From positions 1-21,434 of IMG/VR virus record IMGVR_UViG_3300042556_002638: a stretch of 21,434 nucleotides of DNA. One strand, 5' to 3'. This DNA is from a virus. Under the pieces are notes generated by a model. It saw only the letters and a program-made list of their open reading frames with translations, made no database searches and was not told the origin of the DNA. Every line of letters starts with the position of its first letter. Position 1 is the stretch's first letter. Shown here one piece after another: positions 1-19,693 of this stretch. A program made the position numbers and the translations under genes.

Positions 1-3000
1 AACCCGCCAACTTTCCCGATGACATCTTTGGGAAGCACTTTGAGCAACCCGTCGAGTTCGGCGATAGCTTGGGCGAGTTTCTCGTATTTCACCTTCTCCC
101 TGTAGACCGCATTGGATGCGACACGGCGCGACTCGGAGACCTCGGAGACTTTGCGTTTCTCGGCGGCGACCTCCTGCTCTACTTGCTTCTTCCGCTCGGC
201 GTATTTTTCGCGGATTCCCTTTTCGAGAATTTTGGCGCGATCCTTTGCATCCTCCTGTAGTTGCTTCTTGCCGGTTGAGTCAGAGGCATTGTCGATCCGT
301 TCTGCGAACTGCACGGCATTGTCCTGCAAGGCGGATTGCACCTCGGCAATTTCCTCGGTCTCAATATCAGCAATGCGACCGGCGCGATCCTCCTCCAGTT
401 TTTCGATTGCCGGTGCGGGGTCAGAAACCGCCGCCGCCTTGATAGCATCGAGTGCCGCTTTGTTGTCCTGGATCAGTTGCAGGAACTTCAGTTTTGCCCT
501 CTGGTAAACGGCAAGGCGACCCTCGGGGCCGCGATTGACCGCATCCACGGCGGATGCGACTCGGTCAATCTCCCCTTGTTCGCGGATGCTGTAGGAAGGA
601 TCATCGTTCAATCGGGATACAATCTCGCCCGATATAGATTGGTTTCCCTGCACTTGCCGTGCTTCCTTGGCGATGCGTTGTGCCTCGTCCTGCATAACGA
701 AGCGACCTGCTGTAGTGATGAACCCGAAATTTTTCGTTGGAGGGAATTCCCCGCCGTCCAAATCAAACCCACTTTCCTCCATAAGTTCCGCATGGGTCTT
801 GCTCGGGGAACTTAAAATCTCGCCGTCTTTGGCAATAAGAGCAGTCGCGGCGATGCGCTCGGTTTCGCGGATGCTGTAGAACGGGGTAGATAGGTCGGGT
901 GTAAGTTGATCTCGGATGGCAAGCCGGTTGTTGTACAACTCCATTGCCCCTTCTTCGATTTGTGCATCGGTGATGTTTGGGATGAGGTTCATTGGCCCTT
1001 CTGACGCAACAACCCCTCGGATGTGTTCGGCAAGCGTTTGGTTTTGGTTGTCCACTCGTCCTGTCAAATAATCCTCAACGGATTCAAGCATCATGCCGGT
1101 TGGGTCGTAATCCGAATCCATATAATCGACCGCCTCATCCACCTCAAAGGACTCATCCTCCATCTCTTGCTGTTGGGATTCGATTTTTTGGAAAAGGGAT
1201 TCCAATTCGCTTTCGTAGGTTCCAATCCTTCGATTGGTTCCTCCCGCCTCATACATAGCGTCCAGTTCTTGAGATAGAAAATTGATGCGATCCACATCGT
1301 TGTTTTCTCGGATGCTGTAGGAGAGATCGGAAATCTTCCCATCCCCGTATTGTGGGTCAGTTACGAAAACTACATTGCCTATCTGGTATGCTTTTGATGC
1401 TCCCGTGATTTGCTGACCTGTAGATCGGTCGTAGTAGTAGCTATGCCGGTCGGGATTGTATCCAACTTGAGTCCAATTTTCCAAATCCAATGGCATTGAT
1501 TGGTCTTCTGCCCAATCCCCTTTGATAACAATGTGTGGCCCTTTTGCCCCTCCGAGTGCTATTGCCAGAGATTTTTTTTCGTTCAGCACAAACCTTGGAT
1601 TCTCGATGGCGGCGGCGGCGGAATAGGCTTTCCCTTCTGGTGTGTCGATCACAACAACGCCAACCCCGTGGTCTGTCCATGCAGGGACATCTTGTCGGAT
1701 GTTGACAAGTTGCCGTTCTGGTATTTCGGAAACAGAAATTCGTTTGTTCGGTTTTGATGCCGTTGCATTGTCCACCTCTTCCTGTGTGGGAAGGTCTTTT
1801 TCAGATTGTGGAACCGGCGCGAGTTGCGCGGGGAAATGTTCGTTGATTGCCTCCTCGATAACTTCCCGAGGAATGTCTTCTCCGTTTGACCGGCGTTGCA
1901 ACAAATCCCGCACGATTGGAGAAAATGCGCGACCTTCTTTGGTTACTTCGACACTCTTCCATCCTTCGTATTGTTGAAGAATTGGAGATGCCTCGCGAAC
2001 AGAGTAATTCTGCATTGCATAGTAGAGACCCTCATGTGTGGTCTGGATGTCCTTGGCGGCGTCCCAAATCCAATGGTGGATGATGTGAGGCGCGACCTCT
2101 TTCGGAATCTTTTTCCCGCCCTTTGCTTTGTCCCGTAGCCCGAGGATTGCTGTTCGGATGCGCTCGAAAAGGTCTCGGCGTGTTGCCGCTTGACCCGATG
2201 CTTTCTTGGCAATCGCGGCGATCATCTTCTGATCCTGGTCGGCTCGGGTTGTATCCCCTACACCTGCAAGCCAGATATTGAGTTCGACGGCATCGATGGT
2301 TGACCACCCGCCAAACCCGAGGAAATGCGAGACAAACCCCTTCTTGCCTTCGCCGATTCCAACCGCACTCATCACCGCCTTTTCCAATTTCTCGGGGTCT
2401 CCCTTCGCGGCGTTGATGCGGTCGGTGAGTTCTTTGAGATTGGTGAGGTTTGCCTTCTTGCCCTTGGGCAATCCAACTGACCCCGAGGTCTGCACCCGTT
2501 TGCCCTCGGTCATTCCCTCTGGCAACTCGACCGGCGTGTCCTTGTTGTCGATGGAGAAACTCCATTTGCCTTTTTCATTTACCTCAACTTGCACCGCCTC
2601 GCCTTCGACCATGATTGTCTGGTCGGTGTTTTTTTCGCCCGTGCCGGTGACCCTCCACCTTTCGCGAAGGTCGTTCCTTCCGAATGCATCGCGCAACAGC
2701 AAGCCGGTGTCCCAATCCTCGGCGTTGAACACACCCTTTTCGACATTGTCCAAGGCGCGTTGCCCCTCGGGAGTCCCGAGCCAATATGCCGCCAGTTCCT
2801 CGGGTCGCATCTGCAACTGACCCCGTGTGCCGGTGGTCGTAAACATGGGGTCGGGGTTGAAGGAGATGCCTTCCTGCTGTGCTTTTTTCCCGATGGTCGC
2901 AACATCGATGGCATCCGCGCCAATGCTGGCAATCGTCATCCAGTAGGCTTTTGCCACATCCCGAGGCGAGACCTTGCCGTCCACCAAATCCTGCCGCTTG

Positions 3001-6000
3001 TCCATCATGTAGGAAACAATGGGTTCAAGGTATTCGGGGAATTCGCCAAGCATGGCGACCATGCGCGGGGTCGGGGTCAGTTTCGAGGATTCCAGTTTTG
3101 TGCGGATATCACTTGCGGACATTGACTTCACAATCTTGGCAATCTGGTCGGCGGACTTCTTGGTCTCCTTCACCGAGTAGGCTATGAGATCGTCCATCTT
3201 CCATCGTTCGTTGTCCTGCGACATCATTTCCTTGGCAATGGATGGTTTCACCTCCGCAAGGGTGCGGAATTTCATCATTCTGGCGACCGGCTTGCCTTTA
3301 AGAATGAATCCGTAGGATTTATGTTCTGGCACTCCAAGTTGCTTTGCCGTCATCGCGGGGTCGGTTCCCTCTGGAAGTTTCTCAATCTTGATGATGCCGA
3401 CAATGGTCTGTGCCGGTAGCCCCGCAAACGAGGGTTCCTCGACATCTTTCACCATATTCACGGCATCGGGAAATCCTGCTTTGGTGTTGGTTTTTGTAAG
3501 CAACTCCTGGTAGTTCGTTTGATTCTTATCCTTGTCAAATGTCTTTTTGAAATAGGCACTTCCTCTTTTTCCTTGAGGCATACCGACAATTGCTTTTTCC
3601 GCTTCAGCAAGTGATTTCCAAGGGGTGGAATGTCCTGTGAATTTCTTGTCCGTTTTTACCCATGCTGGATTCCCTTTTCTGGTAAAAAGCAAATTCCCCT
3701 CTGCATCGGTGGCTTGAATCTTTTCTTTTTCAAAAACAGGAGACCCGTCTTTGTTGAATTTCAGTTTCCCGTTTTTGTCTTTCTTCTGAATATCTGTAGA
3801 CCTCGTAGCGTCCACCTTTTTAGTCACATACTTCTCACGCACTCGGTTAATTTCGGCGAGTGCTTTGGCGTTTGTGAGTTTCCCTGCGGCGATGTTCTTC
3901 CGCAACTGCTCAAACCACATCATGGCAAATGACTTGTTACCAATAACATTCCCCTCTGCCATAATAGTCAAAGCAAGATACCCGCCACTATCCATTGCTC
4001 GGGCATACAATCCCCGAGCAGTTCCCTTGGAATTGAATGCCCATCCCACACCGGCCTTGAGATTCTCCACGATGGACGGGAACCCCATCCCTCCCTGCAA
4101 CGGAATCCCGAGGTATTCTCCTCCCGCCTTCATGCGGTCGATGTAAACGGAACGGATGATGCCGCCCGATTCCTTTTTTATCTTGGCAAAGAGTTTGGCA
4201 TCCATCGGGACAAACGAGGTTGGCAAGACTCGGACGCTATAGTTCCAATCATCTGACCAAGGGATTTCCTTCCACTCCTTGCCGGTTTGCTTGTCGGGAT
4301 TGATCTCGTCAATTTTGACATCTGGAGCAGGGTCTCCCGATTCGGTTGCTGGATCGGATGCTCGTTCATCGGGATCGCCCGAGGTGTCCCGCACCGAAAG
4401 ATTCGGATCGATGGATGCGGCGGTCTTTTCCAGCACCGGCAAATCGATAAATGCCGTTCCATTTTCCCACCGGATATTTGAGTCGTTCAACCCCACGCCG
4501 AATTGCTCCAGCATTGGAACCAGCACCGATTTCACCTTGTCAAAATTAGCCTTTGTCGTGATCGAGATGTTTTCAAATTTGCCGTTCGGGTCTACGGGAA
4601 TGCCAAGATCGTTGACGATGCTCTCTCCCGAGATGGCGACCTCTGTTGTGAGAGGTTTGCCGTCCGCGCCGGTGGCGATCACATATCCTTGCTGAAGTTG
4701 TCCGAGGAAAAACCGCAACCCATCTGTGCTGACCGATACATCCTCGGCATACTGGTGATTTTCTGGAAGGAGAGATTGCAATTCCGCCAGCATTGTCTTC
4801 GTTGCTCCTGGTCGAGTCGTTCGCCTTTCGAGTTTGCTGGTGAAGCGATTGGTTGGAGTCCCGTTGTCGTAGACTCTCATGTAGGCGACGAAGTCATTGT
4901 CGCCAAATGCGGCAAGGAACACATCTTGACTGCCTGTCTCGGGGTGTGTGTACACCGCAAACCCAATGCCGTCCTTGTTGAAATAACTGGATATACGAAC
5001 TGGAGTGGAAAGTTTGCCAAAGAAGTCGGAGGTTTCTGGAAATAAGTCGGTATCCCGCACAGATATTTCGTTGCCTCTGGAAATGTCCGAGGCGGTCTGG
5101 TTTCTGGTGCGGTCAAGTCGTACTTGTGGATCGATCCCGAGGGATTGCTCAAGGGCGGTTTGGAAATCGGTGTCGATTGCTCCGGTCTTGAATGCCTCGT
5201 CCATCTTGAGGAATCGGGCGAGTGCCTCCTTGAAAACGGCGGCAATGCGCTTGATGTAGTCCACAAAGGATTGCGGCATGGAGGTCTCATCGACGCGCCC
5301 CATAACAAAGTCCTCGGTGACCTGGGCGAGAGACTCGATCACCTCCATCTCGGTGGCGCGTTTGAGTTCGCGCCCCGTTGCCGCCTCGGTCTGCTCAAGC
5401 CACTTCTGGTAAGTGTCGAGTGTGTAGGTTCCGTTGGCGAGGGCGACCTTAAAGAACCCGTGGTTGATCTCTTCCAGAGCATCGCGGGGAGAGGCATTCT
5501 CTTTCAGTTTGATGACCGCCCGATACACCCCGTCCCGCACCTGTTCGATGGTGGTCTCGCCGAGGATGTAGAGTTTGTTCGGGTCTTTGCCTTGGAGGTC
5601 TCCAAATTTGAGACGCGCCATGAGGTTGTCTATTCCCTTCTGGTCGCCGATGCCTTCCATTTCCACCATTCGTTGCGCGACCGAAACCGGCTTTTCATCG
5701 GTAGAGATGTCGGGATTTTCCAAGACCTTCGACGCCCAATTGAGCAGTTCGGCGGTGGTGGATTTTTCGTTGAGGAGGTTGGCAGAGGTATTCTGTGAGA
5801 TGACCTCCATTGCCGCATCGATGTCTCCAAACCTTCCCACCTCTTCCCCCTTGTAGTCGGTGACGATCCATTCCGCCGTGCCGTCCTCTTTGCGTTCGAC
5901 GGCGAGGTTGTGGTCGGTGTCGGTCTGCTTGATCTGCTGGAGTTGTTGGTTGAGGTATTCCAACCCCCTCGCCTTGTCCTCCTCGGTGCGGGACTGCCAT

Positions 6001-8009
6001 GCCTCTTGGATGCGTTCATCCATTTCGGCTCGGGTTTCCGAGGCGAGGATGGCGTTGATTTTTTCCTCGGAGATTCCTGCTCCCCGCAAGCGTTCGCGGG
6101 TGACCTCGGTATTCACATTCTTGAGGTCGCCGGTGCTGGCAAACCCGCCGCCGATGAGGGCGAGAGGAAGAACGGCAAAGAAGACCTCGGGTCGGGTCTC
6201 CCACCAGTTCCCGAGTTCCTTCATAAAATCTTTGTCGGGCATATCCTCGCGAAGCGAGGCGACGATGGTTTCGACCACCGGCGCGATCATATCTTGCGCC
6301 CCTTCTTGCAAGAACTGCTCGGTTTGAATGACCCCCACCCGCTTGAGGTAGTTGGCGACCCCACCTTTCTGCATACCCTTGAGAACCCCGCTAAAGATTT
6401 TTGATTTTCCAGAAAGTGACGCAAGTTGGAATCGGTCGATCACCGCATTCATTCCGCCTTCGACGAGGGCGAGGGTTGATGCCGCGCCCAAATCCATGTC
6501 CTCGTTTTGGAGGAGGATTCGGTCGAGTTCATTTTGTTGGTATGCCAACACACCGAAAAACGGATTCACGGCGACCGCCCCCATGAGAGGAATGCTACCG
6601 GCAAGCCCATATGCGCCACGCTCAACCGCCCCGAGGAGACCGCCCTGTGCAAGTGGTTTGATCGGATCGACGCCGGTCTTTGCGAGGTTCCGTAGCTTGC
6701 GAACCATCTTCATCGACTTCATGCCTTCCTCGGCATTCTGGCGGATCAATTCCTTTTCCTCGGGCGTTGCCTTCCTCCAATTGCCTTGCAGGGGGTCTTC
6801 GTAGCCGGTCTCGTCGGGTTTCCCAAACGATGCCATCTGAAGGTATTTCGGGAGTTCCTGTGCGGTGCGAGGATTCTGGTATTCACCGGCGGGAAGAGAT
6901 TCCGATTCCACGGGAACCCACACATCATCCTTCTCGACTGCTTTGAGTCGGCTTGCCGCCTCCGCTTGCCCCGAGAAAATGTCATTGGCAGGAATCCAAT
7001 CAAACCCACGGGAGAGGGATTCCCCGAGGTTTTTTGCCAGTTGCGCCCATGCACCTCGGTCGATCTGTTCCGCCTCGGCGGCGAGGGACACATATTGCGA
7101 GACCTTGGTGAATTGCTCGGGTGTGAGATCGCGGAGGTTGCGCCCGAGTTCATCCAACTGCTCCTGGGTTGCGTTGCCTTGGGTGAAAGCGACAAGGGTC
7201 TTGTAGGTGGGCGCGGCGTATTGCCGCACATCCTTGAGGTCATCGATGGTGTTGCGATACATCTCACCGGCATTCCGAGCCAATAGCCATTGCCGGTCGG
7301 GAGTGGCGAGTTCGGGGTACTTTGCCATCCATTCGGAAAGGGTACGCCCTTGGTCGCGAACCATCGGGAATTCCTGTCCGTAGTTGGTCGCATTGAAGGC
7401 ATCCATGACCGCCATCATGTTGAGGTCATCGAGTGCCTTTTCGGTTACTTGCCGGTTGTTGAAGTGATCCGCCAGCATTTGCCGGTATTCCCCCTCGGTC
7501 TTGGGCGCGTTCTTACCGAGCTTCGCGGCAACAAGTTTTTTGTAGAGGGTGTAGTCGGAATCCTTCAGTTGCTCCACCGGCGTATCCAGCATGAAGGCGG
7601 TCGCCCTCCAGTTGGTTGCCATGTCTTTGAAGGCTTGCGGGTCGTAGGATTCCGAGGCGAGGTCAACTACATCGGGCGCGACTCCTCCGAGGTTGTCGCG
7701 ATCCGAAAGCATTGCCGTGATGTCCTTCCCCTCTTGCCGGTAGCTTTTCGCGGAACTCCATTGGTCTCCGAAAGGGTTGCTGTTGCCGGTTACACTTTCT
7801 TCAAAGTCCATCGCCCTGCGACCGGCAAATACCTCATTGAGGGGTCTGTCCTCTGGTTCGATGGGTGGTTGGGTAGGTGCTGGAACCGGCGAAGGAACCG
7901 GCGGCGGAAGCGGTTGGGCTTGCGCCTGTCCAAGTGGATTCTCCTCATCTTGCCTCGGTAGTGGGGTCGGCATTGGATTAGGAAGAGTGAAGTCGTTTTG
8001 TGTTGCCAT
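1..8009 (-). CDS. Giant polyvalent virion/ejection-type protein (LPP), C-terminus beyond window
   Basis: I translated this frame by hand from the ATG at 8009 to base 1 and found no stop: at least 2669 codons. The start lies 3 nt after the stop of the core-protein gene and has no clear Shine-Dalgarno. Seen in order: Pro-rich N-terminus (about 20-60); helical region with Gly/Ala hydrophobic stretches (about 453-490 and 610-625); EEINH site at 846-850 resembling a degenerate HExxH; GNAT-like stretch (about 990-1090); block with IPLQGGMGFP (about 1300); Lys-rich low-GC insert (about 1340-1510); block with LGTPEGQ (about 1743); block with GKKGF (about 1890) and HHWIWD (1978-1983); block with WTQVGYNPDRHSYYYD (2179 onward); coiled coil (about 2500-2650); LPKDVIGKVGG at the edge. 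Several blocks match what I recall of phage and mobile-element polyvalent proteins; that is recall, not a search. Its position after gp14- and gp15-like genes suggests a virion or ejected protein (inference). Confidence 0.93.
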   Translation of the reverse strand, partial: MATQNDFTLPNPMPTPLPRQDEENPLGQAQAQPLPPPVPSPVPAPTQPPIEPEDRPLNEVFAGRRAMDFEESVTGNSNPFGDQWSSAKSYRQEGKDITAMLSDRDNLGGVAPDVVDLASESYDPQAFKDMATNWRATAFMLDTPVEQLKDSDYTLYKKLVAAKLGKNAPKTEGEYRQMLADHFNNRQVTEKALDDLNMMAVMDAFNATNYGQEFPMVRDQGRTLSEWMAKYPELATPDRQWLLARNAGEMYRNTIDDLKDVRQYAAPTYKTLVAFTQGNATQEQLDELGRNLRDLTPEQFTKVSQYVSLAAEAEQIDRGAWAQLAKNLGESLSRGFDWIPANDIFSGQAEAASRLKAVEKDDVWVPVESESLPAGEYQNPRTAQELPKYLQMASFGKPDETGYEDPLQGNWRKATPEEKELIRQNAEEGMKSMKMVRKLRNLAKTGVDPIKPLAQGGLLGAVERGAYGLAGSIPLMGAVAVNPFFGVLAYQQNELDRILLQNEDMDLGAASTLALVEGGMNAVIDRFQLASLSGKSKIFSGVLKGMQKGGVANYLKRVGVIQTEQFLQEGAQDMIAPVVETIVASLREDMPDKDFMKELGNWWETRPEVFFAVLPLALIGGGFASTGDLKNVNTEVTRERLRGAGISEEKINAILASETRAEMDERIQEAWQSRTEEDKARGLEYLNQQLQQIKQTDTDHNLAVERKEDGTAEWIVTDYKGEEVGRFGDIDAAMEVISQNTSANLLNEKSTTAELLNWASKVLENPDISTDEKPVSVAQRMVEMEGIGDQKGIDNLMARLKFGDLQGKDPNKLYILGETTIEQVRDGVYRAVIKLKENASPRDALEEINHGFFKVALANGTYTLDTYQKWLEQTEAATGRELKRATEMEVIESLAQVTEDFVMGRVDETSMPQSFVDYIKRIAAVFKEALARFLKMDEAFKTGAIDTDFQTALEQSLGIDPQVRLDRTRNQTASDISRGNEISVRDTDLFPETSDFFGKLSTPVRISSYFNKDGIGFAVYTHPETGSQDVFLAAFGDNDFVAYMRVYDNGTPTNRFTSKLERRTTRPGATKTMLAELQSLLPENHQYAEDVSVSTDGLRFFLGQLQQGYVIATGADGKPLTTEVAISGESIVNDLGIPVDPNGKFENISITTKANFDKVKSVLVPMLEQFGVGLNDSNIRWENGTAFIDLPVLEKTAASIDPNLSVRDTSGDPDERASDPATESGDPAPDVKIDEINPDKQTGKEWKEIPWSDDWNYSVRVLPTSFVPMDAKLFAKIKKESGGIIRSVYIDRMKAGGEYLGIPLQGGMGFPSIVENLKAGVGWAFNSKGTARGLYARAMDSGGYLALTIMAEGNVIGNKSFAMMWFEQLRKNIAAGKLTNAKALAEINRVREKYVTKKVDATRSTDIQKKDKNGKLKFNKDGSPVFEKEKIQATDAEGNLLFTRKGNPAWVKTDKKFTGHSTPWKSLAEAEKAIVGMPQGKRGSAYFKKTFDKDKNQTNYQELLTKTNTKAGFPDAVNMVKDVEEPSFAGLPAQTIVGIIKIEKLPEGTDPAMTAKQLGVPEHKSYGFILKGKPVARMMKFRTLAEVKPSIAKEMMSQDNERWKMDDLIAYSVKETKKSADQIAKIVKSMSASDIRTKLESSKLTPTPRMVAMLGEFPEYLEPIVSYMMDKRQDLVDGKVSPRDVAKAYWMTIASIGADAIDVATIGKKAQQEGISFNPDPMFTTTGTRGQLQMRPEELAAYWLGTPEGQRALDNVEKGVFNAEDWDTGLLLRDAFGRNDLRERWRVTGTGEKNTDQTIMVEGEAVQVEVNEKGKWSFSIDNKDTPVELPEGMTEGKRVQTSGSVGLPKGKKANLTNLKELTDRINAAKGDPEKLEKAVMSAVGIGEGKKGFVSHFLGFGGWSTIDAVELNIWLAGVGDTTRADQDQKMIAAIAKKASGQAATRRDLFERIRTAILGLRDKAKGGKKIPKEVAPHIIHHWIWDAAKDIQTTHEGLYYAMQNYSVREASPILQQYEGWKSVEVTKEGRAFSPIVRDLLQRRSNGEDIPREVIEEAINEHFPAQLAPVPQSEKDLPTQEEVDNATASKPNKRISVSEIPERQLVNIRQDVPAWTDHGVGVVVIDTPEGKAYSAAAAIENPRFVLNEKKSLAIALGGAKGPHIVIKGDWAEDQSMPLDLENWTQVGYNPDRHSYYYDRSTGQQITGASKAYQIGNVVFVTDPQYGDGKISDLSYSIRENNDVDRINFLSQELDAMYEAGGTNRRIGTYESELESLFQKIESQQQEMEDESFEVDEAVDYMDSDYDPTGMMLESVEDYLTGRVDNQNQTLAEHIRGVVASEGPMNLIPNITDAQIEEGAMELYNNRLAIRDQLTPDLSTPFYSIRETERIAATALIAKDGEILSSPSKTHAELMEESGFDLDGGEFPPTKNFGFITTAGRFVMQDEAQRIAKEARQVQGNQSISGEIVSRLNDDPSYSIREQGEIDRVASAVDAVNRGPEGRLAVYQRAKLKFLQLIQDNKAALDAIKAAAVSDPAPAIEKLEEDRAGRIADIETEEIAEVQSALQDNAVQFAERIDNASDSTGKKQLQEDAKDRAKILEKGIREKYAERKKQVEQEVAAEKRKVSEVSESRRVASNAVYREKVKYEKLAQAIAELDGLLKVLPKDVIGKVGG
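579..596 (-). repeat. SYSIRE motif copy (residues 2472-2477 of the giant protein)
   Basis: Encodes S-Y-S-I-R-E. The same peptide core occurs at 864-881 and 1305-1322, with nearly identical DNA (TACAGCATCCG in all three). Related forms occur at residues 2001-2006 (NYSVRE), 1256-1261 (NYSVRV), 1203-1208 (NLSVRD) and 981-986 (EISVRD). It lies just before the long C-terminal coiled coil, so it looks like a domain-boundary motif. Confidence 0.75.
864..881 (-). repeat. FYSIRE motif copy (residues 2377-2382 of the giant protein)
   Basis: Encodes F-Y-S-I-R-E, sharing the DNA core TACAGCATCCGCGAA with the copy at 579-596. It lies 95 residues before that copy and 147 after the one at 1305-1322. Confidence 0.75.
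1305..1322 (-). repeat. SYSIRE motif copy (residues 2230-2235 of the giant protein)
   Basis: Encodes S-Y-S-I-R-E directly after the block containing WTQVGYNPDRHSYYYD, so it marks a domain end. The DNA core TACAGCATCCGAGAA differs from the other two copies at one synonymous base. Confidence 0.75.
3480..3990 (-). other. Low-GC, Lys-rich segment inside the giant gene with an internal peptide repeat
   Basis: Within the giant frame (residues about 1340-1510) base composition drops: hand counts give 35% GC for bases 3721-3780 and 42% for 3541-3600, against about 60% in most of the gene. The peptide is Lys-rich and holds two aligned 18-residue units starting at D1411 and D1435. They share D, G, L, F, G, P and K at positions 1, 4, 6, 8, 12, 14 and 18. 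This looks like an acquired insertion built from beta-hairpin-like repeats. No function can be assigned. Confidence 0.55.
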
Positions 8010-8012
8010 GAA

Positions 8013-10124
8013 TTATGTCGCCAATTTTTGAAGAGCAGGGATGAGAACTTGCCTTGCAAAGTCCCGTTCGTTGATGCCGCCGCGAGATGCCCCTGGGTCA
8101 TTGGTTTTGTGTGGCGCAATAAAAGTCATGCCATCGATGCGCCCAAGGGTGCTGGCAAGGATTTTAGCGTAACCATCGGGGTCGCTTTGTACCGCCGCCA
8201 AAGCATCCGAGTCGGCGACAAAGAAGGGTTCGGTGTGGAATCTTCCGCGAGTGCCGCGCCCGTTTTCTTTTGCTGTTCGCACACCCCTGTTGGGGACATC
8301 GATGCCTTTCGAGCGGAACCACTCGGTGGTGCGATCCACATACGCTTTTGCAATTGCCCGTTCCTGCTCGGTCGCATCATTCGGGATGATGATTTCTACC
8401 CCACGGGCGGTTGGCGAAGCGGCATCATTGAAGTCGAGGGAGACTTGCCGTGCCATTGGAGTCGAGGAAGGGAGTGCGTCCCGAGTCTTGTCGGTGACTT
8501 TGAAAGAGTAATCCCCGCCGGTCAGATCGGACACATCGGGGTCAAACATGGAAACCTCGTTGCCGGTCGGAGTGGAGGCGTCCTGTCTTGGAGTCGGCAT
8601 CGGAGTGCGAGTTGGGAGAGGGTCGGTTGGTTTTGCCGGTGGCTCGGCGGGGAACATTGATCGCCATGCTCTCTGGAAAACTCCTGGTTCCGCCCCGAGT
8701 GCCGCCTTGGCTTGCGCCGGTAGGAGGAGTTGGTTGAGAAACTCGTCGGCGTCTCTTTGGTTGGTGATCCCTGCTTTGCGGAACTTTTCCAACGCATCCA
8801 TTTTGGCGGTCTCGATCACCATTTGCTGTTGGACATATTCGGGAGATTGTTCCTCCCCGCTTGCCTTCGCGGGAACCTGCCCGAAAAGACCCATGCTCGC
8901 TTGCAGGTTGAGTTTGTTGGCGACATATCGCTCGATGTCGGAGTTGGGCTTGAGAGACCCTCCGTTTTCCGCCATCTCGGCAACTCGTTTTTGCAGTCCG
9001 TCAAGGATCAGTTTAAGGTGCGGATCGGGGATGTTGGCGGTCGCCCATGTCACCATTTCCAGCATCTCCCTTGCCGGTGCGTCTGTGGCAGGGAAACCGG
9101 CAAGTTTGTTCATGCCTTCGCGGATGAGCATCTCGCTTTGAGTGCTTCCCGCCTTGTTGTTGATCATTCTCCTCTCAAGGGCGGTGCGCTCTTCATTACC
9201 AAGTGTTTTATAGACAGGGTTGGCGCGGAGGGACTCAAGGGTCATGGTGTTGGAGTCAACCAAATCCACCATTGCCGTGACCTTCTCTGTTGTCTGAAAA
9301 GTGTGTGCGTATTCCGCCGCCTTGAGGTAGCGAGGATAGCTTTCGAGGGAGATGTTTTTAATGTCGGAAAGCGGGGTTCCAGACATGATTGCCTTTTGCA
9401 ATTTTTCTCCCATGACAACAGGGTTTGCCTGTATTGCCGCCATGAGGTTCTTGGTGTCTCGCGCCCCCTCGATGGCAATTTTGTTTGATGCATACGCCTC
9501 TGGAGACAACCGGCGGGTGGTGAACAGGGACTCGTTCATGGTGGCGGCATCGTCGTATTGACCCCCATTGATCAAGGTCTGCATGGAGGCGAGTTTGCGT
9601 CCCTCGTCCTGGTCGAGATTGGCGATGTGTGCGGCAAGCGAGTATTCCGCCATGTCCTTTGCCACGGCGCGTTGAGCGTCTGCTTCTACGAACCGGCGAC
9701 CAAAGGGAGAGATGCCTTGGAAGAGGGCGGGATTAAGTTGCCCGTCCTTGGTCTGATAGGTGTTCTTGACGATGACGGGATACATGGAGGGGTTCGCCCC
9801 TGCCATTTGTTGCTTCATGCTCCCCTGTATATCGGTGAGGTTGTTGAGGAATTGTGCGGTCGCCTCGGCATTTGCCATGCGCGAGTATGCGCTAACCCCG
9901 TCCCCGATATTGTCCGCCGTGTTGATGATGTCAGTTCCGACATTTTGCATGGCAGTTCCCATTGCCGATGCGGCTCGGGCGTTGACCATGTTGCTCTCGT
10001 AGCCTTGGCGAATCTGCGAGATTGCCTGTCCTCCCACCTCGTCCCTCGGGAATTGCGGGTTGGCAAGGGCGGGTTTGCCGCCCATCGGAGCGTTGGGAAT
10101 TTCTGCGAGTGGGATTCGTGCCAT
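8013..10124 (-). CDS. Internal virion core protein with C-terminal peptidoglycan-hydrolase-like domain (gp15-like position)
   Basis: 703 aa from an ATG 6 nt after the stop of the preceding gene; a weak AGGG lies upstream. Residues about 25-450 are Ala/Gln-rich, largely helical and without cysteine-rich or membrane segments, as in podoviral internal core proteins. A Pro/Thr-rich linker follows (about 475-510). The last 130 residues (about 574-703) form a distinct domain with GVRTAKENGRG (614-624), FHTEPFF (629-635) and APHKTNDPGASRG (670-682). I recall this pattern from phage proteins annotated as N-acetylmuramoyl-L-alanine amidase or peptidoglycan hydrolase, with H630 and E632 as candidate active-site residues. 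The likely role is local cell-wall opening during DNA ejection (inference). The gene sits between the gp14-like protein and the giant polyvalent gene. Confidence 0.85.
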   Translation of the reverse strand: MARIPLAEIPNAPMGGKPALANPQFPRDEVGGQAISQIRQGYESNMVNARAASAMGTAMQNVGTDIINTADNIGDGVSAYSRMANAEATAQFLNNLTDIQGSMKQQMAGANPSMYPVIVKNTYQTKDGQLNPALFQGISPFGRRFVEADAQRAVAKDMAEYSLAAHIANLDQDEGRKLASMQTLINGGQYDDAATMNESLFTTRRLSPEAYASNKIAIEGARDTKNLMAAIQANPVVMGEKLQKAIMSGTPLSDIKNISLESYPRYLKAAEYAHTFQTTEKVTAMVDLVDSNTMTLESLRANPVYKTLGNEERTALERRMINNKAGSTQSEMLIREGMNKLAGFPATDAPAREMLEMVTWATANIPDPHLKLILDGLQKRVAEMAENGGSLKPNSDIERYVANKLNLQASMGLFGQVPAKASGEEQSPEYVQQQMVIETAKMDALEKFRKAGITNQRDADEFLNQLLLPAQAKAALGAEPGVFQRAWRSMFPAEPPAKPTDPLPTRTPMPTPRQDASTPTGNEVSMFDPDVSDLTGGDYSFKVTDKTRDALPSSTPMARQVSLDFNDAASPTARGVEIIIPNDATEQERAIAKAYVDRTTEWFRSKGIDVPNRGVRTAKENGRGTRGRFHTEPFFVADSDALAAVQSDPDGYAKILASTLGRIDGMTFIAPHKTNDPGASRGGINERDFARQVLIPALQKLAT

Positions 10125-10130
10125 AGGATT

Positions 10131-10904
10131 CTACCCTGTTGCTTTTGGTGGAGGTGTTGCCGTTGGTTGGTTTGCCGGTGCGGGGTTGGCAGTTGGTTGG
10201 CGGAGGTTGGCGTAAAGAGAGGCGGAACTTGCGATACCCGCCGAGAAGTTCGACATGGCATTCCCATATCCGCTTACGGATTGTGCCGCCGCCATTTGGT
10301 TTCCCGCCATTTGGGTGGCGTTTGCCGCGATGATGCCGGTCTTCTCTGTCCAGTTCGCCATTGCCTCGGCGTATTGATATTGTTTGGCGGTCTCTCGGGT
10401 AAGTTCTGCTTGGTAGTCCTGCATCTTTGCGTCCCAATCGAACGATCCTGCTTCCAAGTTGGTTTTGTAAGCGGCATCCATTCGGGCGAGTTGTTGCATA
10501 CCGGCGGTGTATGCCTCGACCACAAGGGGAGACCCCGTGTCACCTTGGACTCCAGATGATCCATATGCCGCCCGAATCGAGGATTTCTCAAGGTCTCCCT
10601 GCATGATCATGCGTTTGACTGCTTCAAAACCTTGATTCTCGGTGGATCGTGCCTGGTCTCGGAGAACCACCGCATTGTTCCCGTAAACCTGTGCCTGTGC
10701 CATTGCGGTCTTGTAATTGAGTTGCGCTTGAAATCTTTGCACGGCGGCGGTTGCCCGTGCCTGTGCCATTTGTTGCCGCGCATTCAATGCCGCCGCGCCT
10801 CTTTGTGCCGCCGCCGATTGTTGACTTCCATAGATCGACATCCCTGTGCCAGCACCGGCAACCGCAAGTGATGCAACTCCAAGTCCAATTGCTATGCCTG
10901 ACAT
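10131..10904 (-). CDS. Internal virion protein (gp14-like)
   Basis: 257 aa. It starts with an ATG that overlaps the end of the cupin-like gene by 13 nt; AAAGGA lies about 10 nt upstream. The first 25 residues are Gly/Ala-rich and hydrophobic (MSGIAIGLGVASLAVAGAG). A long Ala/Gln-rich helical body follows, and the C-terminus is Pro/Thr/Ala-rich (about 235-257). A short hydrophobic N-terminus plus a Q/A-rich helix is typical of the T7 gp14 position, an inner-core or ejected protein that associates with the outer membrane. The assignment rests on composition and gene order, not on conserved catalytic residues. Confidence 0.75.
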   Translation of the reverse strand: MSGIAIGLGVASLAVAGAGTGMSIYGSQQSAAAQRGAAALNARQQMAQARATAAVQRFQAQLNYKTAMAQAQVYGNNAVVLRDQARSTENQGFEAVKRMIMQGDLEKSSIRAAYGSSGVQGDTGSPLVVEAYTAGMQQLARMDAAYKTNLEAGSFDWDAKMQDYQAELTRETAKQYQYAEAMANWTEKTGIIAANATQMAGNQMAAAQSVSGYGNAMSNFSAGIASSASLYANLRQPTANPAPANQPTATPPPKATG

Positions 10905-11356
10905 ATCAATCGATTCCTTTCCGTTAACCCCATCGGCTCAAAACCGGCGGGGAGTGTTCTGTTTTCAAGATAGGTATTGGTCATAAGCCACTCGTCGGGG
11001 TCGGTAATGTTGGTGCGGTGGAAGGTTGTCCAGACGAGGTCTTCGATAACCATGAAGACTCGGCGCGTTCCGATTTCGGTGATGCCGGTGTAGGGCGCGG
11101 AATATCGAGTGACCTCTCCGTATTCGTCGCAAATATCCGCAACCCCCTTGGACAGCACAAAGGGATGCTTGGTCTTGTGCGTGACCGAGGTGAACATGGT
11201 TCCCGCCGGTGCATGGATTTCGCGGATGTAGATACCATCTGCAAACCTGTGGAAGGTTGGGATGTCGGCGGGGAAATCCTCGGCAAGCGAGATCATCTCG
11301 TTTTCAAGGACATCGATTTGACGCCCGAATCGTTCGCGTTGTTCGGGTGTTCGCAT
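10892..11356 (-). CDS. Cupin-like small virion-associated protein
   Basis: 154 aa. The frame is open for another 43 codons upstream, but I chose the ATG at 11356: it overlaps the nozzle-gene stop as TGATG and has a good GGAGGG 9 nt upstream. The N-terminal 40 residues are helical and charged. The centre reads as a beta-barrel: HAPAGTMFTSVTHKTKHPFVL followed by SKG and a strand-rich stretch ending DLVWTTFH, which resembles the histidine pattern of cupins (HxxxH then a later His). I recall similar small proteins after the nozzle gene in podoviruses of Gram-negative bacteria. No enzymatic role can be shown; a structural or sugar-binding use of the barrel is possible. Confidence 0.72.
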   Translation of the reverse strand: MRTPEQRERFGRQIDVLENEMISLAEDFPADIPTFHRFADGIYIREIHAPAGTMFTSVTHKTKHPFVLSKGVADICDEYGEVTRYSAPYTGITEIGTRRVFMVIEDLVWTTFHRTNITDPDEWLMTNTYLENRTLPAGFEPMGLTERNRLICQA

Positions 11357-14064
11357 CAGTTTTGTCCCTCCGTGATTTCCCAAACAGGAACGATTGCCGC
11401 GATTGTCAAAGGCATTGGCAGGGTCTGGCGGATGAAGATGTCCACCCCGTCCTGCCAGTTGCTGGAAAGATACATTCGGTTCCATCCGTTGCGAACCGGC
11501 GGGGAATCGTCCATGAAGTCGGTTGTTGTTCTTGCGACCATTGGTGACCAGTTGACTTGGTCGCTTGAATATTCACCGGCGAAAGATTGGTAGAGTTTGA
11601 TGTTGATGCGCGGGATTCGCATCTTGCGCGACTGCGATGTCCCATCCGCCATCTGTTGGTCAACCCGCTCGGGACATAAAAGTGATGTGTAAGGTAATCC
11701 AACCACCGAGGCACATACCGGCGTCTGGAGGGTCAACGCCCCGTTGGTGACCGCCATTGGCTTGCCGGTGGCGGGATCGATAACCGGCGTCACAATGCCG
11801 TAGGTGATCTCGTTGTCGGTTGCGTTGTAGACTCCCGCCCAAACCGAAACTTCTTTGCCTTCCAAATGTGAAAGGCCGGTGATCATTGCGTTGCTTACTG
11901 GAATTAGGGATGGCGGATTCACAATTGTAAAAACGCCACCTGTTAAATCCGAAATCGTAAAGAAGTCTCCGTTGATTTTGTTAATTTTAGAAACTCCAGA
12001 AGTGATCCATGAATCAGTTATGGGTAAATAGTTTCCATTTAGTTGAGTGATATAAAATTCTGTACTTGAAATCTTTATTCCAACTTTATAAGTGCCGGTT
12101 AAGCCAGAATTCAAAGGAAGGTTGGAAAAGGTAATGACATCTCCACTTTTAATCGACAATGAGTAGGTCGGAAGTGTTTGCACACCCGAGTCCACAAAGA
12201 ACCATGCGGATTTGTCGCCGGTGTCGAGTGCGTCACGCATCCCTGTTTTGAAGCGTTCGATGCTTCGCACGATTTGGTTATTGATTGTCCTTTTAACCGA
12301 TACCCAAACCTCATCCTCTCCTGTTGTTCCGTTGATGGAGGTGACGCTTTCAAATTCGCCATCGGTGGAGTGCCTTGCAAATCCAACCACTTGTTGTTCG
12401 CGTTCATAGGTCATGGAAACCAGTTGACCATCCCCCCTCACAAACCAATAAACGGCATCTGGAACCCGTTGGTAAGCGACTTCGCGAATCAAGGTTCTGG
12501 TGGTGTGTTCAGCAAGGGCGGTGATGTCGTTGGAAATCCACGATTCGCTCGACCATGTGTAGATCAGTTCGCGGATTTTCCGCGCCATGCGTTGGATGTA
12601 GAGGATCGTGTCGTTGACAACAAGTGCAGGAAGGTTGCTTGAGCCGTATTGCGATTGTGCCTGGGCGCGAACATTGGTTGAGGTCAAAGGGCGCGATGAA
12701 TCTGACGCCGAAAGAGACCATTCATCTAACGAGGTTCCGATAAGCAAAGCGGCTTTGGAAACCAACCAATTGACTCGACCGCCGGTCGTTGATGCCAAGG
12801 TGAATGCCCATGAGTCTGCATCGAATGAACCTTTACGAAAATTTTGGAAATCGTTGCTGTAGCTTCCCCAAAGCGTGTTCGGAGAATTTTTTGTTCCAGC
12901 AAAAATCAGTCGCGATTCATGTAATCCAATGGCATTCGGGTAACCTTGCTCGGTTGAGAATGCGCCTTCATGCCATAAAGAGGTGGCAGAAGTTGCCCCA
13001 AGTGTTTTGACAACAATCGCTTTGGCTTGCTGGTAAAAAAGGGGTTCACCTTCAAAACCTGCTGTTGTTCCCAAAACGGATACAATTTTTACAAACCCGC
13101 GCAGAAGAGGTTCGATTGCAGACATCTGTATTCGCGGAGGTGATGCAGATGTAGTTGCAACATAGTTGTTCACAACAAAACGGAACAATGTTTCTTGAGA
13201 TTCCTCTCCCGTAGAAACAACATTGTAATCGTTGCGCGAAACATATGTGCGACGGACTTCCCAAGTCGCCCCATTGTCTGAACTTGCTTGCAACGAAATA
13301 TTTGCACTCCATGTTCCAAATGATTGGATTTGCCACTTCCCAAGAACGCTAAAATTTGCAGACATGGGGGTGGAAATTGGATGATTAAGAACCCCCGATT
13401 CTGTTGCATGGTCGATTTGCCAAAACGATCCAATGTGAGATTCTTTGAAAATTGGATACGAGGCGGTCAAAGTAATTTGACCGGCATTACTTGTTCTTGC
13501 TGATGGAGTGATTGTTACTGGTGTGACATTTTGATCAAGCATGGGCGGCCACGCCCAAACCACTTCGCCAAACATCCAATTGGTGTCTGAATACCTTGCC
13601 AACCTGTACGGGTGATGATTAGGGTGTACAAAATATACGACATTATTGATTTGAGTATATTTAATCTCTTGAAGTTCGGATTCCAAATAAGGGTGCTGGA
13701 TGGCAGGTTGAGGGAACATTTCAGACCCTTGCCAATCATACACTAACGGCTTGAGGGGTTCATTGTTTGCGGGATCAAGAATGAGATTCCCGTCTTTCCA
13801 AAACCGAATATATCCAACCCCCAATTCAAGAATGTATCGGTCGTTTGCCGTGAGGTTGACGCCAATTAACCGGCAACGAGAGGAAGAGAGTTTTGCCGCC
13901 CCTCGGTATTCCAGACCGGCTCGGCGGTTGGCAGGGCCGTATGGGGTGAGAAGAAAATTCTCAAGAAGTTTGCACCCGTTGCGATACTTTTCGAGGTTGG
14001 TGCGTGTTTCGAGATATGGGCTTAACTCACCGGCATTGAAGGAGGAGATGAGTTGGTTGATCAT
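11356..14064 (-). CDS. Tail tubular protein B / nozzle (T7 gp12-like)
   Basis: 902 aa, with an ATGA overlap with the tail tube A gene and GGAG 4 nt before the ATG. The N-terminus INQLISSFNAGELSPYLETR, followed by LEKYRNGCKLLENF and GPANRRAGLEY, is the hallmark opening of podoviral stabilization/nozzle proteins. The rest is strand-rich beta-propeller-like sequence (for example SRLIFAGTKNSPNTLWGSYSN), ending in a domain around residues 780-890. The product would form the distal tail tube below gp11-like rings and hold or gate the DNA. Two parts have lower GC than the neighbours: about 13000-13800, and more strongly 11880-12190. The second encodes two short beta repeats (GLTGTYKVGIKISSTEFYI and a related one) and looks inserted. 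Confidence 0.93.
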   Translation of the reverse strand: MINQLISSFNAGELSPYLETRTNLEKYRNGCKLLENFLLTPYGPANRRAGLEYRGAAKLSSSRCRLIGVNLTANDRYILELGVGYIRFWKDGNLILDPANNEPLKPLVYDWQGSEMFPQPAIQHPYLESELQEIKYTQINNVVYFVHPNHHPYRLARYSDTNWMFGEVVWAWPPMLDQNVTPVTITPSARTSNAGQITLTASYPIFKESHIGSFWQIDHATESGVLNHPISTPMSANFSVLGKWQIQSFGTWSANISLQASSDNGATWEVRRTYVSRNDYNVVSTGEESQETLFRFVVNNYVATTSASPPRIQMSAIEPLLRGFVKIVSVLGTTAGFEGEPLFYQQAKAIVVKTLGATSATSLWHEGAFSTEQGYPNAIGLHESRLIFAGTKNSPNTLWGSYSNDFQNFRKGSFDADSWAFTLASTTGGRVNWLVSKAALLIGTSLDEWSLSASDSSRPLTSTNVRAQAQSQYGSSNLPALVVNDTILYIQRMARKIRELIYTWSSESWISNDITALAEHTTRTLIREVAYQRVPDAVYWFVRGDGQLVSMTYEREQQVVGFARHSTDGEFESVTSINGTTGEDEVWVSVKRTINNQIVRSIERFKTGMRDALDTGDKSAWFFVDSGVQTLPTYSLSIKSGDVITFSNLPLNSGLTGTYKVGIKISSTEFYITQLNGNYLPITDSWITSGVSKINKINGDFFTISDLTGGVFTIVNPPSLIPVSNAMITGLSHLEGKEVSVWAGVYNATDNEITYGIVTPVIDPATGKPMAVTNGALTLQTPVCASVVGLPYTSLLCPERVDQQMADGTSQSRKMRIPRINIKLYQSFAGEYSSDQVNWSPMVARTTTDFMDDSPPVRNGWNRMYLSSNWQDGVDIFIRQTLPMPLTIAAIVPVWEITEGQN
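11880..12190 (-). other. AT-rich insertion-like segment in the nozzle gene
   Basis: Hand-counted GC for bases 11941-12000, 12001-12060 and 12061-12120 is 32%, 30% and 35%, against 52% at 11641-11700 and 65% at 10021-10080. It stays in frame (residues about 626-730) and encodes Ser/Thr/Ile/Asn-rich beta-strand repeats. This is consistent with acquisition of a host-contact or decorating domain from a low-GC source. Confidence 0.6.
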
Positions 14065-14651
14065 GCGACTCCAGAGTAACGGGATTGAACGAGGTCAGAA
14101 TCGACCCAAAGCATTTTTCTGCGGGGAATGCCTTCACCGGCGTCAATGCGCCGTGCCTCGGCGAGTGATTTTTCAAATTGTCCATTCATCATTTTTTCAA
14201 TGTCGAGGGAACCGGCAAGAGGTCGCGCCAGTTTGGCGGCGAGGCGAAGAACAAGGGCGTCTACAAAGAGAGGATCGAAGAGGTTTTCATCTACAATTTT
14301 TTGGATGTAGGAAATGACCGCCGTGGATTCATCGGAGTAAAGTTGGTTGCCCACAATCTGGAATTGTGTGACCGGCATGGTGGGAGCAAAAGAGTTGAAG
14401 GTCAGCATCCGCCCGAAATCCACGGGAAGACCGAATGCGTATTTCCAATCGTAAAGTGGCTCGGGACTGATGGGGGAGAGTTTGGAATGGGATGTTGCCC
14501 AATTCCAGTTGTGCAGTCGAAGGAGTTCCTGGGTGGTCGGTTCGTAGAATAGCTTGGAGAACCGAGCTTCGGGGGTTGGATCATCAAGTGACAGGATTGC
14601 GATGTCGCCAATCTTGGCGAGGGCGAGGTTGCAGATTGTCGTTGAGTCCAT
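14061..14651 (-). CDS. Tail tubular protein A / adaptor (T7 gp11-like)
   Basis: 196 aa. The N-terminus MDSTTICNLALAKIGDIAILSLDDPTPEARF, followed by FYEPTTQELLRLHNWNWATS, is the classic signature of the gp11-type gatekeeper/adaptor. Family members are about 190-200 aa, which this matches. The product would form a ring between portal and nozzle. The ATG lies 6 nt after the U-tract of the capsid terminator and has no Shine-Dalgarno, so expression must come from read-through transcripts. The gene overlaps the nozzle start by ATGA, which implies translational coupling. Confidence 0.93.
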   Translation of the reverse strand: MDSTTICNLALAKIGDIAILSLDDPTPEARFSKLFYEPTTQELLRLHNWNWATSHSKLSPISPEPLYDWKYAFGLPVDFGRMLTFNSFAPTMPVTQFQIVGNQLYSDESTAVISYIQKIVDENLFDPLFVDALVLRLAAKLARPLAGSLDIEKMMNGQFEKSLAEARRIDAGEGIPRRKMLWVDSDLVQSRYSGVA

Positions 14652-14704: not shown

Positions 14705-15634
14705 TTACTTGGTAGTGTCTGCGAGGATTTCGACCACACCCTTCTCAAGGAGACGGGTTGCGCCCATGACCGCCGTTGAGCGGACTTGAAGCGAGTGGCG
14801 ATTCTGTGGCAGGATGTCCATGTAGGTTTTGCGACCGCCATCGACCATGACCGCCGATTGCTTCTGGTATGCGATGCATGAACGGATGTTTGATGCAACG
14901 GGCAGGAGTTCGGTGCGAACCACTTTGAACCCGAGGAAGGAATCCACTTCACCATCCACAAGGGCGCGAACGCTGTTGTAGAGTTGGTTGGTCACTTCCT
15001 GTGTTCCGAGCAAGTCGGCGATTTCCTTGGAGGAGACCACAAGGATGCGGTCTTCAGCAGGGCATTCGTTGGAATCCAGAATGCGTTTTGCCTCGCGGAG
15101 CTTGGCAATAGACAATCCGGTGTTGGTTGGTGTTCCGCCGCCGCCGACATAGTTGACCGCCACCTTTTGGGTGTTGGGCAAAGCAATCGTGGTGGTGGTG
15201 TTGTTGAGACCGAAACCTGCCGAGGTGTTCGCGACATTGGTAATGGTCGAATTGCCGAGGAGTGCTGTGATCAGCACCGAGTCAGCAGTACGCCCGTATG
15301 CCGCCGCCTGGGCTTGCATGGTCTCGGAGGTCGGGAGAACAACACTTCCGAGGAAGGTGTTGTCGAACTCGTCAAACCAATTGCTGGTGTCGTAGGGAGT
15401 CGGATACGCCCAACGAGCTGGCATGGCGATGTCGGAGTTGGTAGTCGCGCCGTTGCGGGTCGTGACCGCCGCCATCGAGGTTGCGTCGAGTTGATTGAAT
15501 CGCACCGCCGCGCCGTTCGCTTGAACGAGTTTGGTGCGTTCCTTGAGACGGGAATCCATCTGTTGCAGAAGCATCTGCCAGTTGGTTTCGTATTGGATCA
15601 CATAGTGATCGGGAATTTGAGTTAGATTAGGCAT
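14705..15634 (-). CDS. Major capsid protein
   Basis: 309 aa from the ATG at 15634. The opening MPNLTQIPDHYVIQYETNW and later signatures (FDEFDNTFLGSVVLPTSE, SIAKLREAKRILDSNE, VDSFLGFKVVRTELLP, DGGRKTYMDILPQ) match what I recall of the capsid family in BPP-1-like podoviruses, an HK97-type fold. The length fits. The frame is open 28 codons further up to a TTG at 15718 directly behind AGGAGGGG (spacing only 2-3 nt). That would add a Ser/Thr-rich tail, and I judge it less likely because the family begins near the ATG. The ATG has no Shine-Dalgarno of its own. The gene lies between the scaffold terminator and its own terminator, consistent with separately set high expression. Confidence 0.93.
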   Translation of the reverse strand: MPNLTQIPDHYVIQYETNWQMLLQQMDSRLKERTKLVQANGAAVRFNQLDATSMAAVTTRNGATTNSDIAMPARWAYPTPYDTSNWFDEFDNTFLGSVVLPTSETMQAQAAAYGRTADSVLITALLGNSTITNVANTSAGFGLNNTTTTIALPNTQKVAVNYVGGGGTPTNTGLSIAKLREAKRILDSNECPAEDRILVVSSKEIADLLGTQEVTNQLYNSVRALVDGEVDSFLGFKVVRTELLPVASNIRSCIAYQKQSAVMVDGGRKTYMDILPQNRHSLQVRSTAVMGATRLLEKGVVEILADTTK

Positions 15635-15729
15635 TGTAGGAGTTGAGTTGAATTGAGTTGAACTGCTTGTTCCGCTCGCCCGAGTTGTCCCGATTGGGAT
15701 TCGTTTTTCGCGGGTCAACCCCTCCTACA
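15635..15729 (-). promoter_or_regulatory. Structured capsid leader: long-range pairing around the start
   Basis: On the minus strand TGTAGGAG (15729-15722), part of the only strong Shine-Dalgarno nearby, is the exact complement of CTCCTACA (15642-15635) just before the capsid ATG. The next bases GGGTTGA can pair with TCAACTC after a 2-nt bulge. Just upstream of CTCCTACA, TTCAACTCAA occurs twice in tandem (15662-15643). The fold would hide the AGGAGG and place its base next to the ATG. Function is inferred. Confidence 0.5.
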
Positions 15730-16999: not shown

Positions 17000-17228
17000 G
17001 GGATTTGGATGCCATTGCGCGGATGTGCAGGATCACTTGCCGTTGCCCGTCTCGGACTGCGGCTCGGATCGGATCGAATGATCCATCGGCGTTGGGCGTG
17101 AAGGCGGGGAGGTTGATGCCAAAAGCCTTTTCGAGATCGGCAATCACCAGTTGTCCGTCGGGGATGTCGAACCACCCGTAAGCATGGGCGGTCTTTGCGG
17201 TGCGTACTTTTTTGGCGAGGTCGTTCAT
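16956..17228 (-). CDS. Bbp19-like small head protein
   Basis: 90 aa, with an ATGA overlap with the portal stop and AGGAGG 13 nt upstream of the ATG. The stretch FDPIRAAVRDGQRQVILHI (about 51-69) resembles the conserved core I recall from the Bbp19 family of Bordetella phage BPP-1, found between portal and capsid genes. The C-terminus is short, Thr/Lys-rich and probably disordered. The role is not established; position suggests head assembly or packaging. Confidence 0.68.
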   Translation of the reverse strand: MNDLAKKVRTAKTAHAYGWFDIPDGQLVIADLEKAFGINLPAFTPNADGSFDPIRAAVRDGQRQVILHIRAMASKSHEQSTTTKTNSRKD

Positions 17229-19274: not shown

Positions 19275-19314
19275 CCCACCGGCGAGTGCGTATTCGGGAG
19301 TCAACCCGCGAAGG

Positions 19315-19331: not shown

Positions 19332-19333
19332 TG

Positions 19334-19693
19334 TCACGATAGAGAGGAGTGAATTTGTCGGCATTTCTGCTCGATACTATCCCACGCGAAGAAACGCAAC
19401 TTATTTTTTCGTTCATACGAAACCCACGGGAGTTGAAATGGTGGCGCGGCAAAAGCGTGATGAAACGCACCGGCGAAGAGGTAGAGATGCCAGCAGTCTG
19501 GATCGGTGAAGTTAACCCATGGGTTAACTATGTCCTCGTAGGAGGCGTCCTTCCTCACAGGTCTCCCCATGACAAAAGCCTCGGGGTGCGAGTAAACATA
19601 CCCGTGGAGGAGGTGTGCCTCCAAATCCTCTTGGAATGATCTGGCGCAATCTTCTTGCTGGTAAACGGCGGCGGCGAGTTCGACGGGTTTCAT
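19334..19693 (-). CDS. Conserved small phage protein downstream of terminase
   Basis: 119 aa, started by the ATG of an ATGA overlap with the terminase stop; no Shine-Dalgarno, so it is probably translationally coupled. Sequence features: FQEDLEAHLLHGYVYSHPEAFVMGRPV (about 20-46), a WHLYLFAGAFHHAF segment (about 68-81), and LPWVSYERKNKLRFF near the end. I recall a conserved, uncharacterised phage family with this pattern (helix with LEAHLxHGYV, then FVMGRPV, then PWVSxER), usually encoded between terminase and portal. Function is unknown; position suggests packaging or head assembly. Confidence 0.82.
   Translation of the reverse strand: MKPVELAAAVYQQEDCARSFQEDLEAHLLHGYVYSHPEAFVMGRPVRKDASYEDIVNPWVNFTDPDCWHLYLFAGAFHHAFAAPPFQLPWVSYERKNKLRFFAWDSIEQKCRQIHSSLS

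Follow-up and report, generated by a model that had tools for sequence, protein, structure and literature searches.

The giant gene that closes the virion module of this phage contig encodes an array of exchangeable cassettes, and between the cassettes stands a short joint motif, [FY]-S-[IVL]-x, that had gone unnoticed in the original prediction. Conservation of the joint is protein-level and lineage-specific: nearly all joints of one protein are spelled alike, and the spelling is fixed per phage lineage, not per cassette. We put at about even the chances that the giant is an ejection polyprotein whose lineage-specific joints are read by a co-evolving partner, most likely as proteolytic processing sites. 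The giant as such is of a known kind, a polyvalent protein in a podoviral ejection module; the lineage-coded joint is the new part, and no such motif was found in the open-access literature searched.

A giant reading frame at the end of the virion module

The window (the whole stretch of DNA analysed) is an entire IMG/VR virus record of 21,434 bases. Its recognised genes share the minus strand and run from terminase through portal, scaffold-like, major capsid, two tail, short tail fibre-like, gp14-like and gp15-like genes to the giant. As proposed at the outset, the giant comes last; it follows the gp14-like (phrog_418) and gp15-like genes and is the final gene of a T7-like virion/ejection module.

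3..8009, minus strand: giant ORF, 2669 aa, ATG-started, open at the contig edge (ORF listing and translation)
8013..10124, minus strand: gp15-like ORF ending in an amidase-like domain (PF01520, E 8e-4, short of the cut-off; position directly upstream of the giant)
10131..10904, minus strand: gp14-like internal virion protein (phrog_418, E 3e-12)
10892..11485, minus strand: short tail fibre-like protein (phrog_12032, E 5e-27)
11356..14064, minus strand: tail protein, tubular/nozzle type (phrog_376, E 3e-172)
14061..14651, minus strand: tail protein, tubular A type (phrog_394, E 2e-47)
14705..15718, minus strand: major capsid protein (PF19821, E 5e-58)
15863..16780, minus strand: scaffold-like protein (phrog_3742, E 2e-36; PF05396 weak)
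17225..18949, minus strand: portal, or head-to-tail connector (PF12236, E 5e-131)
19690..21273, minus strand: terminase large subunit (phrog_2, E 1e-13)

The claim of a single stop-free frame of at least 2669 aa, continuing past the window edge, was confirmed by the ORF list, the translation and the full-length relatives: no stop interrupts the 2669 codons, and the frame runs off the edge. Full-length relatives (L002/L009, 3206 aa; L003/L008, 3067 aa) are open from end to end, with 82-91% identity to the window giant over the N-terminal ~990 aa, which excludes a frameshift artefact. Since the window is the whole record, there is nothing to the left of base 1, where the C-terminus was to be sought, but the relatives place the end of the protein ~855 aa further on. 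This part of the conserved C-terminal module is estimated to be missing by comparison with L009 and L008, so that the full window protein would have ~3,520 aa. Complete giants of the family range from 1,379 to 3,344 aa. The giant gene of L075 has an early stop inside the C-module, which the other complete relatives do not have.

A tail fibre was rejected, as neither Pfam nor PHROGs gave a match to any tail-fibre family, the kind of match that would have counted against the original prediction.

Sister contigs of 37-38 kb encode an integrase, RecT and a PD-(D/E)XK nuclease, and the window phage family therefore probably consists of temperate T7-like podoviruses of uncultured bacteria. PADLOC found no defence-related family.

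Some neighbouring genes deserve a remark. The C-terminal domain of the gp15-like protein swaps between sister phages, being amidase-like in the window and L004 and of different sequence in L008/L009; a weak DPBB lytic transglycosylase match came up in the same scan. Between terminase and portal, a small ORF (18972-19364) has proline runs (PPPPPPPPPPPP) and glycine runs, and an ORF resembling it occupies the equivalent place in L079 (8620-8931). In the sister phage L082 the giant is followed by a gene (694-2907) for a tail protein whose RCC1-like repeats (PF25390, E 3e-49) are of a beta-propeller type rarely seen in phages. Tail-region proteins of another sister phage, L080 (12080-14837), had DUF285 and alpha/beta-hydrolase (DLH/Peptidase_S15) matches at the level of a proteome scan.

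Constant modules around a variable cassette array

A profile scan with the C-module identified 69 viral loci and 2 genome loci of uncultured phages, two of the relatives belonging to contigs that were assigned to the bins of a Verrucomicrobia MAG and an Acidobacteriia MAG. None of 50,697 GenBank phage records matched the C-module; with the entire window protein as query, just two records matched, each over a single cassette. The common plan is a constant N-module (~930-975 aa), a variable cassette array and a constant C-module (~830-1,000 aa).

5085..8009, minus strand: conserved N-module, residues 1-975 (aligned over ~950 aa in most relatives, 21-94% identity), with a Pro-rich stretch at residues 9-55 (Pro count) and hydrophobic segments at residues ~470-489 and ~609-627 (hydropathy)
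4401..5054, minus strand: cassette c1, residues 986-1203 (only in the window protein; gap 992/1192 against L009, L012 and L011)
3180..4229, minus strand: cassette A, residues 1261-1610 (model pLDDT mostly 70-94; no PDB match)
2007..3167, minus strand: cassette B, residues 1615-2001 (common with the InPase-bearing polyvalent protein of MW202675)
1320..1994, minus strand: cassette C, residues 2006-2230 (weak, sub-threshold likeness to Phage_L5_gp82, PF25735)
879..1307, minus strand: cassette D, residues 2235-2377 (homologues in L008 and L009)
594..866, minus strand: cassette E, residues 2382-2472 (L008/L009 lack it, precisely from one motif to the next; L012 has it)
3..581, minus strand: opening 193 aa of the conserved C-module (remainder beyond the contig edge)

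The Pro-rich N-terminus of the original prediction is real, with 17 Pro in residues 9-55. The coiled coil described as terminal is not terminal; it is the start of the conserved C-module. A further hydrophobic segment, by hydropathy only, lies at ~2917 in the C-module of L008.

It was also correct that the protein contains many unrelated blocks, for relatives differ by whole blocks and cassettes are gained, lost and permuted between them. The window has an extra block (986-1203) relative to L009, L011 and L012, and another (2382-2472) relative to L008 and L009; no homologue of cassette c1 was found among the relatives. In L012 another block, with the ART-like start FSIRAFHGS, replaces B-C-D, and L023 carries cassettes A and C in the opposite order to the window giant. 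L017 has both modules, almost no array and no joint motif.

Structure prediction, which had been suggested as a check, gave two AlphaFold models with mean pLDDT 62-63. They are good locally, at cassette A and a zincin-like region of the N-module, but Foldseek found no match to either model in the PDB with E <= 0.001, and PDB sequence searches with cassettes A, B and C returned chance matches only. The pattern GIGEGKKGF...TIDA in cassette B, with invariant Lys and Asp, may be a likeness to HhH-GPD DNA glycosylases, which neither search nor fold confirmed.

The window giant itself has no Pfam domain above its cut-off. We place it among the polyvalent proteins (PMC5512222), as originally predicted, because its relatives carry named domains of this kind and because cassettes B and C recur elsewhere. 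An ART-PolyVal cassette is present in 12 of the 17 relatives scanned, and other named cassettes in relatives are PBECR5, RadC, LPD3, GNAT and PRTase. Cassette B recurs in an 898-aa protein of MW202675 together with InPase (PF18823, E 2e-47), a domain defined in polyvalent proteins, and cassette C in a 994-aa protein of MW202701 that is encoded between portal and capsid genes. The giant thus combines disparate domains in one chain, its cassettes being separate homology units that come and go; through B and C it has domains in common with other polyvalent proteins; and its gene lies among late virion genes.

A joint motif at the cassette borders

Eight copies of the joint motif were located in the window giant, of which the near copies ISVR (982) and LSVR (1204) bound cassette c1.

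5055..5066, minus strand: copy 1, ISVR, residues 982-985 (left edge of the cassette absent from L009, L011 and L012)
4389..4400, minus strand: copy 2, LSVR, residues 1204-1207
4230..4241, minus strand: copy 3, YSVR, residues 1257-1260
3168..3179, minus strand: copy 4, YSVK, residues 1611-1614
1995..2006, minus strand: copy 5, YSVR, residues 2002-2005
1308..1319, minus strand: copy 6, YSIR, residues 2231-2234
867..878, minus strand: copy 7, YSIR, residues 2378-2381
582..593, minus strand: copy 8, YSIR, residues 2473-2476 (start of the C-module)

The window giant has six [FY]S[IV][RK] matches compared with a mean of 0.12 in shuffled sequences, and none of 20,000 shuffles reached six. The arrays of 43 non-redundant giants contain 173 [FY]S[IVL], five times over chance (34.7 ± 5.7 when shuffled). 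In the same 43 giants the motif was below chance in the N-modules (9 versus 22.9 expected) and C-modules (11 versus 21.6), and in the gp15-like ORFs it was at chance (12 versus 11.2). In the models, the joints coincide with or adjoin stretches of low confidence that are probably flexible.

Homology segments between relatives start preferentially just before the motif and end just after it. Of their 814 ends, 196 were no more than 10 aa away from a motif, compared with 71 ± 8 for circular shifts (maximum of 1000 shifts, 102). As homology ends cluster on the motif, it marks the border of the units of exchange.

We considered whether the motif is simply the end or start of ART domains. The ART cassette was preceded by it in 28/28 proteins with the family modules and in 1/21 without them, and in the ART proteins without family modules the motif was at chance (31 versus 42.8 expected). 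Since the motif also flanks unrelated cassettes, and is missing before ART in 20 of the 21 module-less proteins, this reading was rejected. In 6 of these 21 proteins (L151, L146, L165 and others) ART is preceded by AGLINFLPA[FY]HGT, possibly a different joint of another polyvalent lineage.

Some members with an array have weak or altered motifs (L030 FATGR, L051 FSTI, L055 LALG, L067 FSM), and such variants are repeated within their own protein, FATGR twice in L030 and FST-I twice in L051.

Joint spelling follows the phage lineage

Joints read YSVR, YSVK or YSIR in the window clade, FSIG in L046, L068 and L078, FSII or FSVI in L073, FSIS in L028, FSIR or FSLR in L058 and NYSIG in L093 and L097. 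Cassette A, where it occurs in other lineages, bears the joint motif of the respective lineage.

Agreement among joints of one protein was compared with that after permuting the copies among proteins. It was raised at position 4 (0.431 versus 0.186 ± 0.020), position 1 (0.701 versus 0.579 ± 0.025), position 3 (0.460 versus 0.371 ± 0.025) and position -1 (0.282 versus 0.135 ± 0.018), not significant at positions -2 and 5, and marginal at position 6 in this first set. A search with the ART cassette yielded 27 proteins that the first set did not contain, and these gave the same pattern, although the two sets are not fully independent, since both belong to the same superfamily. The class of the residue at position 4 (R/K, small or hydrophobic) needs no more than three changes on an N-module tree of 39 rows; a poorly resolved tree of ART cassettes, built to look for transfer between lineages with a change of joint, counted six changes.

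Homogenisation of the joints at the DNA level was rejected, because their codons are no more alike than gene usage predicts. Agreement of the Ser codon class within a protein was 0.672, versus 0.622 ± 0.040 predicted from the codon usage of the gene, and AGY and TCN codons are mixed in 23 of 38 proteins. As the copies do not share codons beyond gene usage, their agreement points to selection on the peptide.

A zincin-like domain in the N-module

5295..5573, minus strand: zincin-like domain, residues ~813-905 (aligned to the HExxH...E relatives L023, L024, L027, L068 and L078)
5460..5474, minus strand: EEINH at the HExxH position, first His changed to Glu

The modelled domain has a strand-strand-helix-helix core (pLDDT ~75-92) in an order that fits the zincin fold, while Foldseek gave no confident PDB fold match for it. 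Of 43 non-redundant relatives, 13 have HExxH and a downstream Glu where the N-module ends, and the other 30 lack HExxH. The window (EEINH) does not have the complete signature of HExxH plus downstream Glu; its clade reads EExxH with the downstream Glu kept, and other clades EExxE or HExxE. Both Glu positions are invariant across the 35 rows of the alignment behind the model. Because the His is replaced almost only by Glu, the sequences suggest a site that has changed rather than simply decayed, and it is perhaps a metal site of a new kind.

Presence of HExxH was associated with a small residue at position 4 of the joint (11/11 versus 9/28, Fisher p 1.5e-4), but the tree offers at most three independent contrasts for this strong plain table, and co-evolution of HExxH loss with the position-4 type was left as a lead. 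Scans of the predicted proteins of two sister contigs, which took in part of the small ORFs, brought up no clear gene for a separate phage protease; one family member had a weak alpha/beta-hydrolase/Peptidase_S15/S9 match.

How the joints may be read

We propose that the giant is loaded into the head as an internal virion protein, as the position of its gene suggests, and that the joint would be recognised as protein by a partner co-evolving with the phage lineage. Recognition would most likely take the form of cutting at the joints, during maturation or after ejection, and this would release the cargo from the N- and C-modules. The natural candidate for the ancestral protease would be the N-module's own zincin-like domain; as the first zinc-binding His is Glu in the window, cutting there would need a modified site or another protease. 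A fuller version, in which the giant is a cargo polyprotein of exchangeable effectors set between a peptidase-like N-module and the C-module, every joint a lineage-specific cut site read by a co-evolving peptidase and the joint an entry code, is more tentative, and we rate it somewhat below even. Several points weigh against the proposal: recognition without cutting fits the same data; HExxH is absent from the window clade and many relatives while the motif persists; no separate protease gene was evident in the scans of sister contigs; and a few relatives with arrays have weak or altered motifs.

The main rival to cleavage is docking or threading by a pseudo-peptidase, in which the (pseudo-)zincin or another virion part binds the joints to order, unfold or thread the chain through the narrow portal. 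The motif persists where the zincin-like site has lost its His, the two invariant Glu are as expected of a retained binding domain, the motif is confined to the giant, and a concerted footprint of ~5 residues fits a bound peptide. The binding is putative, however, and Iyer et al. 2017 (PMC5512222) argued that zincin-like peptidases process polyvalent proteins, citing cleavage of P1 DdrB before packaging; we regard docking as unlikely, at roughly one chance in four.

It is less probable still, though not negligibly so, that the giant is never delivered with the virion and acts as an intracellular late protein or a non-ejected structural scaffold. Delivery is deduced from gene position, and the giant has no sequence homology with gp16; on the other hand, a gp14-like gene, a gp15-like gene and then a large gene is the order of podoviral ejection genes (PMC8954989), a long ORF directly precedes the giant in most relatives, hydropathy gives hydrophobic segments in both constant modules, and polyvalent domains typically occur in proteins that enter the host along with the DNA (PMC5512222).

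That the joints are recombination seams only, short shared DNA for gain and loss of cassettes with no role in the protein, appears improbable. Close relatives do gain and lose cassettes exactly motif to motif, and two identical 15-bp copies (TACAGCATCCGCGAA) stand on either side of cassette E, for which reason the joints may also help recombination. Yet, across and within proteins, identical residues are encoded with Ser codons of either family and with differing third positions, the codon class is not concerted, and in different lineages the amino-acid spelling shifts in concert at every joint. An N-to-O acyl shift, as in Nup98 and FIIND/ZU5-UPA domains, might let the chain cleave itself at the [FY]-Ser bond. 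Only the F-S resemblance suggests this, and it is very improbable, since Ala replaces Ser at some joints (FAIRAYHG in L013/L016, SYAIRAL in L021, FATGR in L030) and the joints are not embedded in a shared fold.

The joints bear on how giant phage-delivered proteins are packed, pass a narrow portal and are converted into working effectors. The 2017 proposal of processing by zincin-like domains defined no sites; the joints can now be named residue by residue, and in both data sets, which are partly independent, their behaviour is that of recognised sites. If the joint is indeed read as an entry code for cutting, a cassette that gains the joint of a new lineage would become deliverable by a modular delivery system. 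As joints mark cassette borders, effector domains without known homologues can be separated cleanly.

Comparison with known systems

The original prediction likened the giant to gp16-type ejection proteins. Gene position, and position only, bears this out, the giant being the last and largest gene after gp14-like and gp15-like genes, as in T7 gp16-type proteins (PMC8954989); its hydrophobic segments in two regions, seen by hydropathy, may be a further likeness. Homology to T7 gp16 does not: neither N- nor C-module had a relevant match in PDB sequences or PHROGs, and no transglycosylase domain, as in gp16, was recognised in the giant. An amidase-like domain is found on the gp15-like ORF instead, and a peptidoglycan-hydrolase-like domain is known to move between gp15-like and gp16-like proteins, being on the gp15-like protein in phage K1E as in the module studied here (PMC8954989). 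Unlike gp16-type proteins of 609-1,337 aa (PMC8954989, Table 1), the complete relatives set against them measure 1,933 to 3,344 aa. They also differ in having a cassette array, which is not described for gp16.

The N4 virion RNA polymerase is a giant single protein of about 3,500 aa that is packaged and ejected, and the full window giant would be similar in these dimensions. Unlike it, the giant has no recognised polymerase domain, and its cargo is a changing array. The N4 protein has a zincin-like domain and is packaged unprocessed (PMC5512222).

Like the zincin-like metallopeptidases of polyvalent proteins, about a third of the relatives have HExxH and, in a helix further downstream, a Glu, and L017 reads HELWEH, like the HEXXXH variant (PMC5512222); EExxH in the window clade, and EExxE or HExxE in other clades, set the family apart. 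The word 'linker' was not found in the text of PMC5512222. Like the polyvalent proteins described there, the giant is very large and multi-domain, lies beside virion genes and, across its family, has a zincin-like domain and named domains. Unlike them, it has fixed N- and C-modules around a variable array, and a joint motif that is coded by lineage.
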